A stretch of DNA of 42,040 nucleotides from a virus, in IMG/VR virus record IMGVR_UViG_3300046028_003285, positions 1 to 42,040 of that record. The stretch is one strand, 5' to 3'. The number at the start of each line of letters is the position of its first letter. The first letter of the stretch is position 1. Below are positions 34,708-40,757 of this stretch, one piece after another. Position numbers and translations under genes: made by a program. Under the pieces are notes generated by a model. That model saw only the letters and a program-made list of their open reading frames with translations, did not search any database and was not told where the DNA came from.

Positions 34708-34906
34708 CGCCGTGACCGGCCCTACGGTCATAGTATATGACCGTAGCTTCGGTAATCGCTGCTATTACATCCTCACCAACATGAACACATGTGGCCTTCC
34801 CGTACCGCAGGTCGTTCTCGTCTGTTGATGTCATGATGAGCCCAGAGGAGGCTTTTGTCTCCTCTTTGATTGGCTCGATTACTATGTATTTTCCGATGGC
34901 TCTCAT
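34643..34906 (-). CDS. groES: GroES-like co-chaperonin
   Basis: 87 aa, slightly shorter than bacterial GroES (about 97). It has the N-terminal strand YIVIEPIKEE, the mobile loop KASSGLIMTS (about residues 17-26), a YGKATCVHVG strand and a final ERDVVLVL strand. It would cap the phage GroEL encoded just upstream; the ATG overlaps the groEL stop (ATGA). The order is groEL then groES, opposite to the usual bacterial groES-groEL. The 3' end overlaps the convergent regulator gene. Confidence 0.85.
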   Translation of the reverse strand: MRAIGKYIVIEPIKEETKASSGLIMTSTDENDLRYGKATCVHVGEDVIAAITEATVIYYDRRAGHGVRIQNRPYHIIQERDVVLVLD

Positions 34907-36474
34907 TTGGCTCTTGCGTTAGTGATGATACAGTTGGTGCTCATGATGGTCGTGGCGACGCTTACGGCGTTCTCTAAGGCACTCTTGGTGACCTTTAGAG
35001 GGTCTATGATACCCATCTCGATCATGTTGCCTACACGGGCCTCTTTTACGTCGTAGCCGTAGCCGAACTGTCCTTGATATCCCAAGGCGATGTCGCCCTT
35101 GATCTCGTTCGCGTCGTAGCCGCCGTTGGCCAAGATGGTATTGAACGGCTGCTGCATGGCATGCTTGAGGATGTTCTTTGCTGTCGAGCAGCCACACATC
35201 TCGCCCGCGATGTTCAGCAATGCCACACCGCCACCGGGCAGAATGCCTCCCTCCATGGCGGCCTTGGTCGCGTACACCGCGTCCTCGACCCTGTCCTTCT
35301 TCTCTTTCATCTCCACGTCGCTCTGTGCGCCGACGTAGATAACACCAACACCACCTGCAAGGTTCGCCAAACGCTCCTCTAGGTGCTTTTTCACGTACTC
35401 GTTGGTCGCTTCCTCCAATTTGGTGCGAATGGAGTCGACGCGTGTCGCTGTGTGTTGAGCAAAGCTATCGTCGGTGACGATAACAGTGCTGTCCTTAGCT
35501 ACCACCACCTTGTTGGCGTGTCCTAGGTCAGCGAACGAGATAGTGAACAGGTTGTCGCCCGTCTCGTCAGAGATGTACTTGGCGCCGGTTGCTGCTGCAA
35601 TGTCCTCCATGATCTCCGAGCGGTTGGCACCGAAGCTTGGTGGAACGATGGCGCAGACCTTGATCACGCCCTTCATCTTGTTTAAGTTTAGGCTGTTCAA
35701 TGCGTTCTCCGCCAGCTCAGCGATGATCAGTATGCTCTTGCCCTGCTGCACGATCGGCGCAAGCAGGTGCTCGATGTTGTTCAGAGACGATATCTCCTGG
35801 TCAGAAACCAGTATGTAGCAGTCCTCGAGGATCGCTTCGTTCTTTTTCTGGTCCGTGATGAAGTATTTCGACATGTAGCCCCTGTTGAGCTTCATGCCAG
35901 ACACCACCTCTGAATAAGTCGTCGCGTTATTAGACGCCTCAACCGTTACCACGCCGTCTTTTGACACCATGGTGTACGCGTCAGCGATGATCTGCCCCAG
36001 CTCTGGGTCGTTATTTGCCGAGATGGTGGCCACAGACGCAAGCGACTCGTCGGTTACCGGTATCGCCATCGCGTCCAGCGCCTGTCCAACGGCAACTGCA
36101 AGGTCTTTCACCTCTCTGAGAACCTTTGTTGGGTTGTCCTCGGGCTTGATGAACTGCTGGTATCCATGGATCAGGGCCTGCGTTAGCACTACAGACGTGG
36201 TTGTACCGTCACCGGCGGCTGTTGCGGTCCTCTCAGATGCCTCACGGACCATCTGCACGGCAAGATTCTGCGTCGGATCGTCCAACACGATGGACCTCGC
36301 GACGGTTACACCGTCTTTTGAAATGGCTAGGCCATGTGTGTGTTGGTCAGACTCGATCAATACGGTCTGGCCACGGGCTCCGAGGGTGGATTTTACGGCA
36401 TCGGCGATGATATCAATGCCAGACACCAGCTTTGCACGGGCGTCAGCCCCAAATTCTACATTTTTTACAATCAT
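34903..36474 (-). CDS. groEL: phage GroEL chaperonin
   Basis: 523 aa from ATG at 36474 (an open extension upstream runs through the promoter and terminator). Group I chaperonin landmarks: TLGARG (30-35), KDGVTVAR (53-60), the ATP-site GDGTTT (88-93), SANNDPELG, DGVVTVEAS and GGGVALL. The C-terminus stops at NARAK and lacks the Gly-Gly-Met tail. It probably folds phage proteins, perhaps the very large stabilisation protein or capsid, or adjusts cavity properties for them. The promoter leader contains TAAATCAAAT; terminator 36503-36527 insulates it. Confidence 0.93.
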   Translation of the reverse strand: MIVKNVEFGADARAKLVSGIDIIADAVKSTLGARGQTVLIESDQHTHGLAISKDGVTVARSIVLDDPTQNLAVQMVREASERTATAAGDGTTTSVVLTQALIHGYQQFIKPEDNPTKVLREVKDLAVAVGQALDAMAIPVTDESLASVATISANNDPELGQIIADAYTMVSKDGVVTVEASNNATTYSEVVSGMKLNRGYMSKYFITDQKKNEAILEDCYILVSDQEISSLNNIEHLLAPIVQQGKSILIIAELAENALNSLNLNKMKGVIKVCAIVPPSFGANRSEIMEDIAAATGAKYISDETGDNLFTISFADLGHANKVVVAKDSTVIVTDDSFAQHTATRVDSIRTKLEEATNEYVKKHLEERLANLAGGVGVIYVGAQSDVEMKEKKDRVEDAVYATKAAMEGGILPGGGVALLNIAGEMCGCSTAKNILKHAMQQPFNTILANGGYDANEIKGDIALGYQGQFGYGYDVKEARVGNMIEMGIIDPLKVTKSALENAVSVATTIMSTNCIITNARAK

Positions 36475-36492
36475 ATTTGATTTAATTTGATG

Positions 36493-36500
36493 CAAATATA
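36493..36500 (-). promoter_or_regulatory. -7 promoter element TATATTTG for groEL-groES
   Basis: 18 nt before ATG 36474, 2 nt beyond the T-tract of the terminator at 36503-36527. The leader has CATCAAATTAAATCAAAT. Confidence 0.65.
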
Positions 36501-36502
36501 AC

Positions 36503-36527
36503 AAAAAAAGGGCCGTTAAGCCCTTTT
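36503..36527 (-). terminator. intrinsic terminator upstream of groEL
   Basis: Arms 36506-36513 and 36520-36527 form an 8-bp stem with a 6-nt loop, and a run of seven T follows on the minus strand. It ends the transcript of the 59-aa gene at 36548. Confidence 0.88.
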
Positions 36528-36547
36528 CTGTCACATTGTCGTGAAAA

Positions 36548-38457: not shown

Positions 38458-38483
38458 TGTTGACATGTTTTGTGATGTCAACA
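38458..38483. promoter_or_regulatory. operator dyad at the early promoter
   Basis: TGTTGACAT (38458-38466) and ATGTCAACA (38475-38483), perfect 9-bp arms with an 8-nt spacer. The probable -33 TTG (38470-38472) lies in the spacer, so a bound repressor would block rightward transcription. Confidence 0.6.
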
Positions 38484-38491
38484 ATCGGTTG

Positions 38492-38499
38492 TATAATTG
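38492..38499 (+). promoter_or_regulatory. rightward (early) promoter -7 element TATAATTG
   Basis: One mismatch to TAnnTTTG, with TTG at 38470-38472 placed 19 nt upstream, near-consensus spacing. A transcript from here would run through the hairpin leader into the plus-strand operon beginning at 38752. Confidence 0.55.
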
Positions 38500-38519
38500 C
38501 ATTCGAGTTCTGATTCATA

Positions 38520-38730
38520 CTATGGTTTTCTGCCCCGAGGGGCTCGCCATAGCCAAGCCATTTCTTGACCCGACATTGCGCTCGGTTCTGCTTGGGAGTT
38601 CTTTGACATGATGAAACTAAATACGGGTTCGCTGATGGTCGGTCAGCGGTAAAGGTCTAGCGGTCTAGACTCACCAACATACATTGCATCCAAGTCAGCC
38701 TTCACGCCACGTCGATTCGAGGGGATGCAA
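38520..38730 (+). ncRNA. structured leader RNA of the early operon (candidate)
   Basis: Five consecutive stems. CTATGG (38520-38525) pairs with CCATAG (38547-38552), with an inner CCCC/GGGG. CCAAGC (38553-38558) pairs with GCTTGG (38590-38595), enclosing a second helix (38567-38573 with 38582-38588). CGCTGA (38630-38635) pairs with TCAGCG (38643-38648). GTCTAG (38655-38660) pairs with CTAGAC (38665-38670). TTGCATCC (38684-38691) pairs with GGATGCAA (38723-38730). It could be a regulatory leader or a stable small RNA; no known family is recognised. Confidence 0.5.
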
Positions 38731-38751
38731 CCAACCTTAATACATAAAGAC

Positions 38752-39018
38752 ATGATAAACTACAACAAATTGATGAGCCACAACCCTACCTCCTACGGGG
38801 TAATGATGAACGACAAAGGACAGCAGATTGAGTTCTTCGAGCACCCAATATTGGGAGACGAGAGCGACATCATCTGCGCTTGCCATGAACTACAACTTGC
38901 CGACTACACGGGCTTCTACGAAACCGACGACATGATGGCTGAGCATGGAGAGTACCAACCATGGTTCAACGAGGACGGCCAGTTGCAGATGGGTGAACTT
39001 GGAAGCCCGAACGAATAA
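38752..39018 (+). CDS. conserved small early protein
   Basis: 88 aa from ATG at 38752, chosen because it follows the AAAGAC element shared by the next starts; an in-frame ATG lies 27 nt upstream inside the last leader stem. Acidic, with SHNPTSYGVMMNDKGQQIEF, FFEHPILGDES, a CHELQLADYTGFYETDD part and an EYQPWFNEDG C-terminus. Similar short proteins occur in Bacteroidota phage early regions; function unknown. First gene of the plus operon; its stop is followed at once by hammerhead 1. Confidence 0.65.
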   Translation: MINYNKLMSHNPTSYGVMMNDKGQQIEFFEHPILGDESDIICACHELQLADYTGFYETDDMMAEHGEYQPWFNEDGQLQMGELGSPNE

Positions 39019-39072
39019 GGTTAACTGACGAGGATTCAATATCCGAAACGGGGCTCACGCCCCGTCTTAACC
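39019..39072 (+). ncRNA. hammerhead ribozyme 1 (type I)
   Basis: Stem I GGTTAA (39019-39024) pairs with TTAACC (39067-39072). Core CTGACGA is 39025-39031. Stem II GGAT/ATCC (39032-39035, 39041-39044) has loop TCAAT. GAAA is 39045-39048. Stem III CGGGGC/GCCCCG (39049-39054, 39059-39064) has loop TCAC. Cleavage-site UC is 39065-39066. All invariant core bases are present. Cleavage after 39066 leaves a 20-nt leader before ATG 39087. Confidence 0.95.
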
Positions 39073-39086
39073 AACAACACAAAGAC

Positions 39087-39419
39087 ATGGAAACTGCAAC
39101 ACAATTTATCAAAGCCATCTCCAACATCGCATGGAGCGAGTACAACCGCAACACCGAGAGCAACGGAACTCTCAAATCGGAAGACGGGTTCAGCCTATCA
39201 TTCACGAGCAAGTTCAACTTGGACGATAGAATGCCGAGCGTTCAAATCATCGCTCAAGTTCGGTACAAGGACGCATATGTGATGACATGGGGATTCACGG
39301 ACGATGCGAGCCAAAGGGAGTTCATCACCTTGCTCAACCGAGCCAAGACTAGAATCTCGGAGAGACAAGAACGGGAGGACAATTGGAACGGGAAGATAGG
39401 ACGCGAACTATTCAAATAG
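39087..39419 (+). CDS. early hypothetical protein
   Basis: 110 aa, mixed alpha/beta. Helix ATQFIKAISNIAWSEYNRN, beta region FSLSFTSKFNLDDRMPSVQ, IIAQVRYKDAYVMTWGF, then a basic C-terminal helix (FITLLNRAKTRISERQERED). No family recognised. The start follows the ribozyme-1 leader (AAAGAC then ATG); the stop TAG overlaps the first base of hammerhead 2. The basic C-terminal helix could contact nucleic acid, but this is a guess. Confidence 0.6.
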   Translation: METATQFIKAISNIAWSEYNRNTESNGTLKSEDGFSLSFTSKFNLDDRMPSVQIIAQVRYKDAYVMTWGFTDDASQREFITLLNRAKTRISERQEREDNWNGKIGRELFK

Positions 39420-39488
39420 GTTAACTGACGAGTCTTCAGTAGACGAAACGGCTTTGAGCGGAGCGAAATGCCCAAAGCCGTATTAACC
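39419..39488 (+). ncRNA. hammerhead ribozyme 2 (type I)
   Basis: Stem I GGTTAA (39419-39424) with TTAACC (39483-39488). Core CTGACGA 39425-39431. Stem II GTCT/AGAC (39432-39435, 39441-39444), loop TCAGT. GAAA 39445-39448. Stem III CGGCTTTG/CAAAGCCG (39449-39456, 39473-39480) with a 16-nt loop. Cleavage-site UA 39481-39482. Predicted cleavage after 39482 leaves 20 nt before ATG 39503. The first base is the last base of the upstream stop codon. Confidence 0.95.
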
Positions 39489-39502
39489 AAAACAACAAAG
39501 AC

Positions 39503-39766
39503 ATGAGCATTGAAACCGATTTGAAACAATTCATGGACATGAGCCATCACGCACTGAACCGCATCAAAGAACTAGAACACCGCTTGGCGATGGTCAAAGA
39601 AGACAGCGCTGAACTGCAGAGATTTATCACCGACAACGGCATGGGCGAGAGGTTTGAAAGACCAACCGACATGTGCGACGAGGCATGGTCACACTTCGCC
39701 AACATCGACATCGCATGCAACTTGAAAAGTAATGAATCATTGGATTGGAAACCATTTAACAAATAA
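39503..39766 (+). CDS. early helical hypothetical protein
   Basis: 87 aa. The first 55 residues are helical and coiled-coil-like (LKQFMDMSHHALNRIKELE, HRLAMVKEDSAELQRFITD); the second half has MCDEAWSHFANIDIACNL. No family recognised. It starts exactly 20 nt after the predicted ribozyme-2 cut. Four nt separate its stop from the next ATG, without a ribozyme, so this pair would remain one bicistronic RNA. Confidence 0.6.
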   Translation: MSIETDLKQFMDMSHHALNRIKELEHRLAMVKEDSAELQRFITDNGMGERFERPTDMCDEAWSHFANIDIACNLKSNESLDWKPFNK

Positions 39767-39770
39767 CGAC

Positions 39771-40049
39771 ATGAAGCAAATCAAAATTACACCGCAAATG
39801 TCCGATGATTTCAAGTCAAAGTACGAGTCATCCGACGAGCCAATTTTTAAAATCTCACAAAATGGAGAGGTAACTCACGGATGCCGTGCTATTGCAATGA
39901 CGGATAAAGCGGTATTTATTTATGTATCCTCCTTCTTGTGTTGCTTTGGTTTTTGGATGCCAATTGATACATACAAAACCATGCATAACGGATACATCAA
40001 GCCAACAAAACGCCCGATTAATTTCAACAACACATTGTACACATATTAA
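39771..40049 (+). CDS. early hypothetical protein with hydrophobic segment
   Basis: 92 aa from ATG at 39771, chosen over an upstream in-frame ATG at 39732 because the junction TTAAC...GAC-ATG matches the other starts. A polar N-terminal half (FKSKYESSDEPIFKISQNGE) is followed by a hydrophobic stretch VFIYVSSFLCCFGFWMPI (about residues 48-65) that may be a single membrane helix, then a basic tail. Base use is AT-richer than its neighbours. No family recognised. Confidence 0.55.
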   Translation: MKQIKITPQMSDDFKSKYESSDEPIFKISQNGEVTHGCRAIAMTDKAVFIYVSSFLCCFGFWMPIDTYKTMHNGYIKPTKRPINFNNTLYTY

Positions 40050-40063
40050 CTAAAAACATAGAC

Positions 40064-40462
40064 ATGAAACAACTTATCAAAATGCCCGAATTAAGGTACG
40101 CTTACATCATCTCAAGCGAAGACGACAGCATGTACGCTGTAGTAGAACACAACGAGACCCTCGCCCACATCGTCGAGACCATTGACGGCACACGGCAGAC
40201 ATTGTACTTTCCCGACGGAAGCGAGATGCACTTCCAAGATACTGACCTACACCAAGTGATGAGCCACGTGCCAAGCAGAACCAACTACGACATGGCATGG
40301 ATGTGGTTTCATGAGAACGAGTTCTCGTTCTTGCATGACCGAGGAAATGGGAGCATATCGGTCTACGTGGAGAACCCCAACAAGACTCAGCAATGCTACA
40401 TGCAGATATCGGACGAGGAGATTGACTATCGTGCTCAACTTTGGAGAGAGTCAAGAGGTTAA
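40064..40462 (+). CDS. early hypothetical protein
   Basis: 132 aa, acidic, beta-rich: YAYIISSEDDSMYAVVEHNE, TLAHIVETIDGTRQTLYFPD, then MWFHENEFSFLHDRGNGSI and a C-terminal EEIDYRAQLWRESRG. No family recognised. The upstream junction TTAACTAAAAACATAGAC resembles the post-cleavage leader of the ribozymes but lacks the ribozyme itself. Its stop codon TAA is inside stem I of hammerhead 3. Confidence 0.6.
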   Translation: MKQLIKMPELRYAYIISSEDDSMYAVVEHNETLAHIVETIDGTRQTLYFPDGSEMHFQDTDLHQVMSHVPSRTNYDMAWMWFHENEFSFLHDRGNGSISVYVENPNKTQQCYMQISDEEIDYRAQLWRESRG

Positions 40463-40512
40463 CTGATGAGTCCTAGGTGGACGAAAGGGCTGGCTTTCCA
40501 GCCCTCTTAACC
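40457..40512 (+). ncRNA. hammerhead ribozyme 3 (type I)
   Basis: Stem I GGTTAA (40457-40462) with TTAACC (40507-40512). Core CTGATGA 40463-40469. Stem II GTCC/GGAC (40470-40473, 40479-40482), loop TAGGT. GAAA 40483-40486. Stem III GGGCTGG/CCAGCCC (40487-40493, 40498-40504), loop CTTT. Cleavage-site UC 40505-40506. Cleavage after 40506 leaves 20 nt before ATG 40527. The stop codon of the upstream gene is part of stem I. Confidence 0.95.
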
Positions 40513-40526
40513 AAAACAACAACGAG

Positions 40527-40757
40527 ATGATAAACGAAATGACCAAACTACTCACCGAGTATTCCGACGCAAAAAATTACATCCTCAAAATTACTGACGA
40601 GTATTATGACGCAATGTCATACGACATCGAGGGATGGTGGAACTTAATTGAGGACGACGAGGCTGACGAGAACGACCTTAAAGAACTTCGCCTTCAAGTA
40701 CATGCAGTAAAGTCTTTGCACATGGCTTTGTCTTGCCTTAAGTACAAGTTCTCCTAA
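40527..40757 (+). CDS. early acidic helical protein
   Basis: 76 aa, strongly acidic (WNLIEDDEADENDLKELRLQ), helical throughout (MTKLLTEYSDAKNYILKITD; VHAVKSLHMALSCLKYKFS). It starts 20 nt after the predicted ribozyme-3 cut. Small acidic helical early proteins sometimes mimic DNA or bind host enzymes, but nothing in this sequence proves that. A new promoter box lies just after its stop. Confidence 0.6.
   Translation: MINEMTKLLTEYSDAKNYILKITDEYYDAMSYDIEGWWNLIEDDEADENDLKELRLQVHAVKSLHMALSCLKYKFS

Follow-up and report, generated by a model that had tools for sequence, protein, structure and literature searches.

Does a phage cut its own polycistronic RNA into separate messages with hammerhead ribozymes (HHs)? 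This question is raised by three short elements that lie among successive plus-strand genes of the window, by which we mean the whole 42,040-base IMG/VR virus record analysed here, a Bacteroidetes-phage genome fragment. The terminase, portal and GroEL of the window match PHROG families 6681, 6547 and 5725, respectively. Judged by terminase, the nearest named relatives are MW202828 (70.6% identical) and the Flavobacterium Elemoviruses (43%), along with Cellulophaga, Maribacter and Tenacibaculum phages. The phage-encoded GroEL gene (phrog_5725; 34903-36534, minus strand) also occurs in MW202828 and Elemovirus. Structural genes occupy the minus strand, and the plus-strand gene set, which starts after a promoter-like site, is the replication side as judged by synteny with MW202828 and Elemovirus. 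A preliminary description of this DNA had spoken of an early operon; the word "early" rests on this synteny and on the promoter-like site at 38470-38497. The features relevant to the question are as follows.

38470-38497, plus strand: promoter-like site TTGTGA-16-TATAAT upstream of the operon, a consensus match only
38752-39018, plus strand: g1, 88 aa, phrog_11770 family; its stop TAA directly abuts HH1
39019-39072, plus strand: HH1; stem I 39019-39024/39067-39072 (GGTTAA/TTAACC), core CTGACGA 39025-39031, stem-loop II 39032-39044, GAAA 39045-39048, stem-loop III 39048-39065, C17 39066; predicted cut 39066/39067; fold -19.5 kcal/mol, z -3.6
39067-39086, plus strand: leader after cut 1, TTAACCAACAACACAAAGAC, 20 nt, then ATG at 39087
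39087-39419, plus strand: g2, 110 aa; stop TAG, whose last base is the first G of HH2
39419-39488, plus strand: HH2; stem I 39419-39424/39483-39488, core 39425-39431, stem-loop II 39432-39444, GAAA 39445-39448, long stem III, A17 39482; predicted cut 39482/39483
39483-39502, plus strand: leader after cut 2, TTAACCAAAACAACAAAGAC, 20 nt, then ATG at 39503
39503-39766, plus strand: g3, 87 aa, preceded by the HH2 leader
39771-40049, plus strand: g4, about 92 aa, without HH; TTTAAC-type leader before its start
40064-40462, plus strand: g5, 132 aa; no HH precedes it, and a TTAACT leader stands at the same spacing; stop TAA inside stem I of HH3 (GGT-TAA)
40457-40512, plus strand: HH3; stem I 40457-40462/40507-40512, core CTGATGA 40463-40469, stem-loop II 40470-40482, GAAA 40483-40486 followed by stem III, C17 40506; predicted cut 40506/40507
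40507-40526, plus strand: leader after cut 3, TTAACCAAAACAACAACGAG, 20 nt, then ATG at 40527
40527-40757, plus strand: g6, 76 aa, downstream of HH3

About 250 nt (38500-38751) separate g1 from the promoter-like site; this region contains several strong hairpins, e.g. at about 38520-38552 and 38655-38671, and is possibly a structured operon leader; it gave no Rfam match. A long, structured-looking non-coding leader likewise precedes the g1 of contig L066 (700-988). PHROG and Pfam assigned no function to the genes flanking the hammerheads.

We examined whether the three elements have the anatomy of a hammerhead. A re-check of the sequence confirmed the preliminary description in its coordinates and strand, in core and stems, and in the predicted 5' ends (39067, 39483 and 40507), and its claim of three type I hammerheads stands well beyond chance (3 matches against 0.00 expected from 100 shuffles). 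Every copy in the window follows the layout A-GGTTAA-CTGANGA-(4 bp, 5-nt loop)-GAAA-(stem III)-UH-TTAACC-A, and all three have the type I core (C3U4G5A6N7G8A9 / G12A13A14, A15.1-U16.1, and H17 other than G). Folding and pairing analysis placed three helices round this core with stem I open, as in type I. Folded alone, HH1 and HH3 have the hammerhead as their free-energy minimum; for HH2 an alternative fold of -24.0 kcal/mol is 0.8 kcal/mol better than the hammerhead fold of -23.2 kcal/mol. Competing folds gave in silico stem I probabilities of 0.12-0.35 for HH2 and 0.08-0.65 for HH3, depending on the flanks. Stems II and III had both been said to differ in length between copies, which is true of stem III, while stem II is 4 bp with a 5-nt loop in all three. 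The statement that the ribozymes lie in intergenic gaps also needs adjustment, since HH3 holds the stop of gene 40064-40462, and the first G of HH2 also belongs to gene 39087-39419. After each of the three predicted cuts, a leader of exactly 20 nt would remain before the next ATG.

Stem III hairpins might serve by themselves as intrinsic terminators or mRNA-stabilising hairpins, the hammerhead-like core being incidental, and many copies indeed have a GC-rich stem III with a small loop. However, there is no T-run, a scan of the three HH gaps found no promoter-like site and called 0 of 3 as terminator-like, and hairpins of this kind would give no reason for the core and stem I to be kept. We regard this explanation as barely credible.

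At gathering score, Rfam calls none of the three window hammerheads. HH2 reached 17 bits with Hammerhead_1 (RF00163), below the gathering score of 34, although topology and core are alike. The best score of the window was 37.7 bits, for HH3 with RAGATH-1 (RF03152), below its gathering score of 56.3, with relatives at 28-29 bits; RAGATH-1 shares the type I order and core, but its model assumes a hairpin upstream and a stem II unlike that seen here. In 28 sampled loci, too, Rfam 15 called no copy at gathering scores. The silence of Rfam was considered as evidence of absence and rejected; its thresholds miss the class. A covariance search had been suggested as a check in the preliminary description: Rfam called nothing at gathering score, and a covariance model brought up additional copies in contigs already matched, some of them with an altered stem I and pairing intact (GATTAA/TTAATC, GGTCTA/TAGATC, GGTGAA/TTCACC and GGTTAC/GTAACC).

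The class was delineated by pattern searches of IMG/VR. The pattern with GGTTAA stem I matched at least 120 contigs, compared with 4 for a scrambled-core control, and a stem-I-free pattern (core and stem II fixed) matched at least 120 contigs, compared with 1 for its scrambled control. A pairing-aware finder applied to the loci of the listed matches gave 135 hits with the true core and 0 with three altered cores, and 128 of the 131 distinct matches listed for the stem-I-free pattern fit a type I hammerhead. Matches in 22 bacterial genome contigs were mostly chance or coding; the real ones were mostly in MAGs, several of them on short contigs resembling phage. Altogether, type I hammerheads with the shape of this class occur in hundreds of phage sequences, among them those of cultured phages of Flavobacterium and Pelagibacter.

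Positions that the patterns did not impose were strongly conserved. Among the matches listed, 144 distinct copies had U16.1 in 98%, and at H17 had C in 72%, A in 27% and never G; the two bases flanking stem I, likewise unimposed, were A in 95% and 97%. The stem-I-free pattern yielded, among the matches listed, 93 complete new copies with 50 stem I sequences, all of them paired. Stem I was exactly 6 bp in 93 of 94 of the copies listed for this pattern, with an outer G-C pair in 97%, and was preceded by A (-1) in 99% and followed by A (+7) in 100% (93/93). The shape of the class is therefore a six-pair stem I with A on both flanks, a loop II reading U-N-A-N-U, and a stem III free to vary; the outer U's of loop II were fixed by the stem-I-free pattern, and prevail also in the copies from the GGTTAA pattern. 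On the basis of the six pairs and the A flanks, the window ribozymes belong to this fixed-geometry class. A catalytic requirement for GGTTAA in stem I was considered and rejected on account of the 50 other sequences. Stem I, described earlier as unchanging, is thus constant within the window, and varies elsewhere with perfect compensation.

An alignment of 137 copies had 98.4% of its pair cells standard, two-sided changes at 13 of 16 pairs, and 462 pair cells with both sides changed, compared with 120 in shuffles; controls slid out of register were 24-41% paired. These counts lean towards structure, because the alignment was fitted to it. Structure, the conserved requirements of cleavage and placement are in this way directly visible from comparison of the sequences. 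One may ask whether the elements are mere remnants of selfish ribozyme elements, decayed or inert, with no function for the phage. Copies are optional between relatives, and a few cores have changed: CCGANGA (U4C), with the rest intact, in L012:643-700, L035:7277-7334, L139:344-405 and L144:4225-4287, and TTGATAA in L108. However, the core is intact in 132 of the 137 model matches, including 14 of the 19 that were not recruited by the exact pattern, pairing and ATG spacing are held across very diverse phages, and compensated changes occur among cultured isolates. We find a relic origin very improbable.

Such isolates are at hand. All 68 matched Elemovirus records (Flavobacterium sp. BAL314) carry the element. 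Between ElemoA_7-9A and elemoA_1-5B the ribozyme differs by two compensated stem II pairs and by the free core base N7, and the 220 bases compared contain one further difference, which lies just outside the ribozyme. An annotated ORF, KNV12_gp65, runs antisense across the Elemovirus hammerhead (NC_055854.1 16289-16396, plus strand) and is probably a spurious gene call. Pelagibacter phages HTVC019P, HTVC022P, HTVC131P, HTVC304P and Jormungand have copies of the same class, whose stem I switches between GCAAAA/TTTTGC and GTTGTA/TACAAC while stem III is conserved. These are located in the region before marR and integrase (e.g. MH598798.1 2297-2359), with no annotated start codon adjoining; the next annotated gene lies some 400 nt further on, so that the class has uses beyond releasing a short leader. 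An infection RNA-seq series has been published for the carrier phage HTVC022P (PRJNA1253180; PMC12753301).

We then considered how the ribozymes are placed relative to genes. Among the matches listed, a downstream ORF beginning with ATG was found for 130 of the 140 copies with enough flank, compared with 26 of 140 in an antisense control. The ATG of these 140 copies lies mostly 12-18 nt past the ribozyme, which corresponds to a leader of 18-24 nt after the predicted cut. Shine-Dalgarno-like words are present in 45 of the 93 leaders of the listed copies from the stem-I-free pattern, i.e. in about half, which makes it likely that the hosts of the class extend beyond Bacteroidetes. On the upstream side, the ORF ends between -6 and +10 of the ribozyme start in 118 of the 127 ORFs found, often inside GGTTAA or CTGA.

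This position of the stops could also mean that cutting is gated by translation: a ribosome finishing the upstream gene would cover stem I and the core, so that the cut would await translation or be blocked by it. The stops of the window, which lie just before, at and inside stem I across the three copies, would fit such a switch, as would the competing folds of HH2 and HH3. Compactness of phage genomes alone, however, would push stops against the ribozyme, and no comparison made here separates the two. We consider the switch unlikely, at least as the primary account of these elements.

Scans of the whole records of 48 contigs found 106 copies, which are clustered, up to 10 per contig, and confined to one strand in each contig. 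A terminase of the window's family is present in 33 of these 48. The ten-copy operon (G013, L160 2804-7578) has seven stem I sequences, all perfectly complementary when G-U is counted. The preliminary description had pictured a tandem set between successive cistrons, which in the window applies to 3 of 7 operon junctions only and is borne out more fully by this relative. The ribozyme-free junctions (g3/g4, g4/g5, g6/g7 and g7/g8) are tight or overlapping. MW202828, the closest named relative, has no HH; together with the 3 of 7 junctions, this indicates that processing is not essential for such a phage.

Modularity was most evident behind g1, whose protein homologues are 32-72% identical. A hammerhead stands flush behind g1 in the window, L055, L066 and L113, with four different next genes; the g1 stop precedes the ribozyme in the window, overlaps its first G in L055, falls within stem I in L066 and lies within the core in L113. 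Contig L063, with the 72% identical g1, is without HH and has an A-rich leader only. Such exchange could suggest mobile gene cassettes, in which the conserved GGTTAACTGA...TTAACC ends would act as homology or insertion points for swapping small early genes, RNA cutting being secondary; the identical stem I sequence in many Bacteroidetes phages points the same way. Selection for DNA homology, however, would not keep a stem I that differs within one operon and across 50 sequences with perfect compensation, and the constraints on U16.1 and H17 are catalytic. The cassette explanation appears quite improbable to us.

The recurrence of GGTTAA may have another origin. The motif TTAACCAA is enriched at -25 to -16 of HH-less gene starts in the HH-bearing viral contigs L001-L120 (TTAACC, 76 versus 15; AACCAA, 138 versus 16); the enrichment was not clear in other phages or bacteria. 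The frequent use of GGTTAA in stem I may thus reflect that its 3' strand coincides with a favoured, shared leader motif, and TTAACCAA is a candidate leader or translation signal in its own right. Some ribozyme-less leaders before gene starts read GGTGTC^TTAACC (L102 (2869-4239), L039, L037 and L075), with the variants CCGTGTC in L001/L092 and GGATGTC in L066 (988). Over 12-13 nt, each of these sites is complementary to the enzyme strand of a complete hammerhead carried by its own contig. Five or more pairs were counted at 12 sites, where about 3 were expected; three lineages account for all of them, and the majority resemble copies of a 3' half. They are possible trans substrates or copied 3' halves.

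Two further observations concern individual contigs. At L084:7269-7507, a pair of hammerheads separated by about 120 nt that contain no ORF lies upstream of phage tRNA genes and could release a small RNA. At L091:250-282 (minus strand), a contig with four hammerheads, Rfam identified the DUF805b cis-regulatory RNA at 38.9 bits, above gathering.

The reading we prefer, with a probability of roughly 0.7, is that the three elements are type I hammerheads with an intact active site, which would cut the polycistronic RNA of the phage co-transcriptionally into mRNAs of one to three genes. Their position between stop and start, on the gene strand, with a fixed leader, no promoter- or terminator-like site in the gaps and conserved requirements of cleavage, strongly supports intercistronic cleavage that would give mRNAs with a defined 5' end and a hairpin-capped upstream 3' end. 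The transcript would start near 38500 and run through g1 and the following genes. Each ribozyme would fold on leaving the polymerase and cut once after H17. The upstream mRNA would retain its stop codon and finish with the stem III hairpin, bearing a 2',3'-cyclic phosphate, and the downstream mRNA would begin with a 5'-hydroxyl, followed by the 20-nt A-rich, unstructured leader UUAACCAAAACAACAAAGAC and AUG. The operon would in this way be split into g1, g2, g3-g4-g5 and g6-g7-g8, whose translation and stability could be set separately; the 5'-hydroxyl end would lack the 5'-monophosphate preferred by 5'-sensing RNases. From the anatomy we infer cleavage itself and its effects on translation and decay, as well as a contact made by A+7.

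The short six-pair stem I would suffice because the A at +7 could touch one of the U's in loop II. A contact between +7 and loop II with a 6-nt arm was described by O'Rourke, Estell and Scott 2015, as cited in PMC9217987, and a single tertiary contact of this kind is reported to restore full activity to minimal hammerheads. As cited there, the engineered molecules share with the class the arm, and with our proposal the contact, but carry a U at +7 together with an A in the loop; in the window class, which is natural, the contact would be formed by the A at +7 and a loop U.

The proposal that phage polycistronic RNA is cut by hammerheads is not new. Perreault et al. 2011 (PMC3088659) found tandem HHs flanking single genes in prophages, proposed that they process phage transcripts, and showed for three clusters that they cleave in vitro and in E. 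coli. The mRNA-processing reading of the preliminary description, likewise not original, is partly supported, in that it agrees with the anatomy (stop and start position, strand, fixed leader and conserved cleavage requirements). The prophage HHs of Clostridium scindens, Azorhizobium and Agrobacterium resemble those of the window in that several lie in a polycistronic region, where they bracket single genes or small groups of genes, near genes without assigned function. Unlike those clusters, which are of types I, II or III with pseudoknots common, the class described here is uniformly type I, with a fixed 6-bp stem I, A flanks, a fixed distance to the start codon, the stop in the ribozyme and up to ten copies per operon, mainly in relatives of Bacteroidetes phages. 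The HHphage of haloviruses HF1/HF2 (PMC3088659) similarly places a hammerhead 13 nt before the start codon of helicase, an early gene, but it is a hammerhead variant, present once per virus, in archaeal viruses. The class was not previously described in the open-licence full texts on hammerheads in crAss-like, Bacteroidetes or Pelagibacter phages. The features that seem to be new are the geometry of the class and how abundant it is, the layout of stop, cut, leader and start, the covariation within one operon, and the availability of testable cultured systems.

A more far-reaching possibility is that a large part of the phages that infect Bacteroidetes or other aquatic bacteria use a standard stop-hammerhead-leader-start module for operon-wide maturation with translation-gated cuts, and that some lineages may also cut ribozyme-less leaders in trans; we offer this tentatively and rather doubt it in so broad a form. 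What hammerheads do in prokaryotes has been described as an open question (PMC6155905). The uniform class reported here, which Rfam thresholds miss, occupies a precise position in phage operons, with up to ten copies per transcript, and the question of ribozyme-made phage mRNA becomes directly testable with existing strains and partly with existing data.
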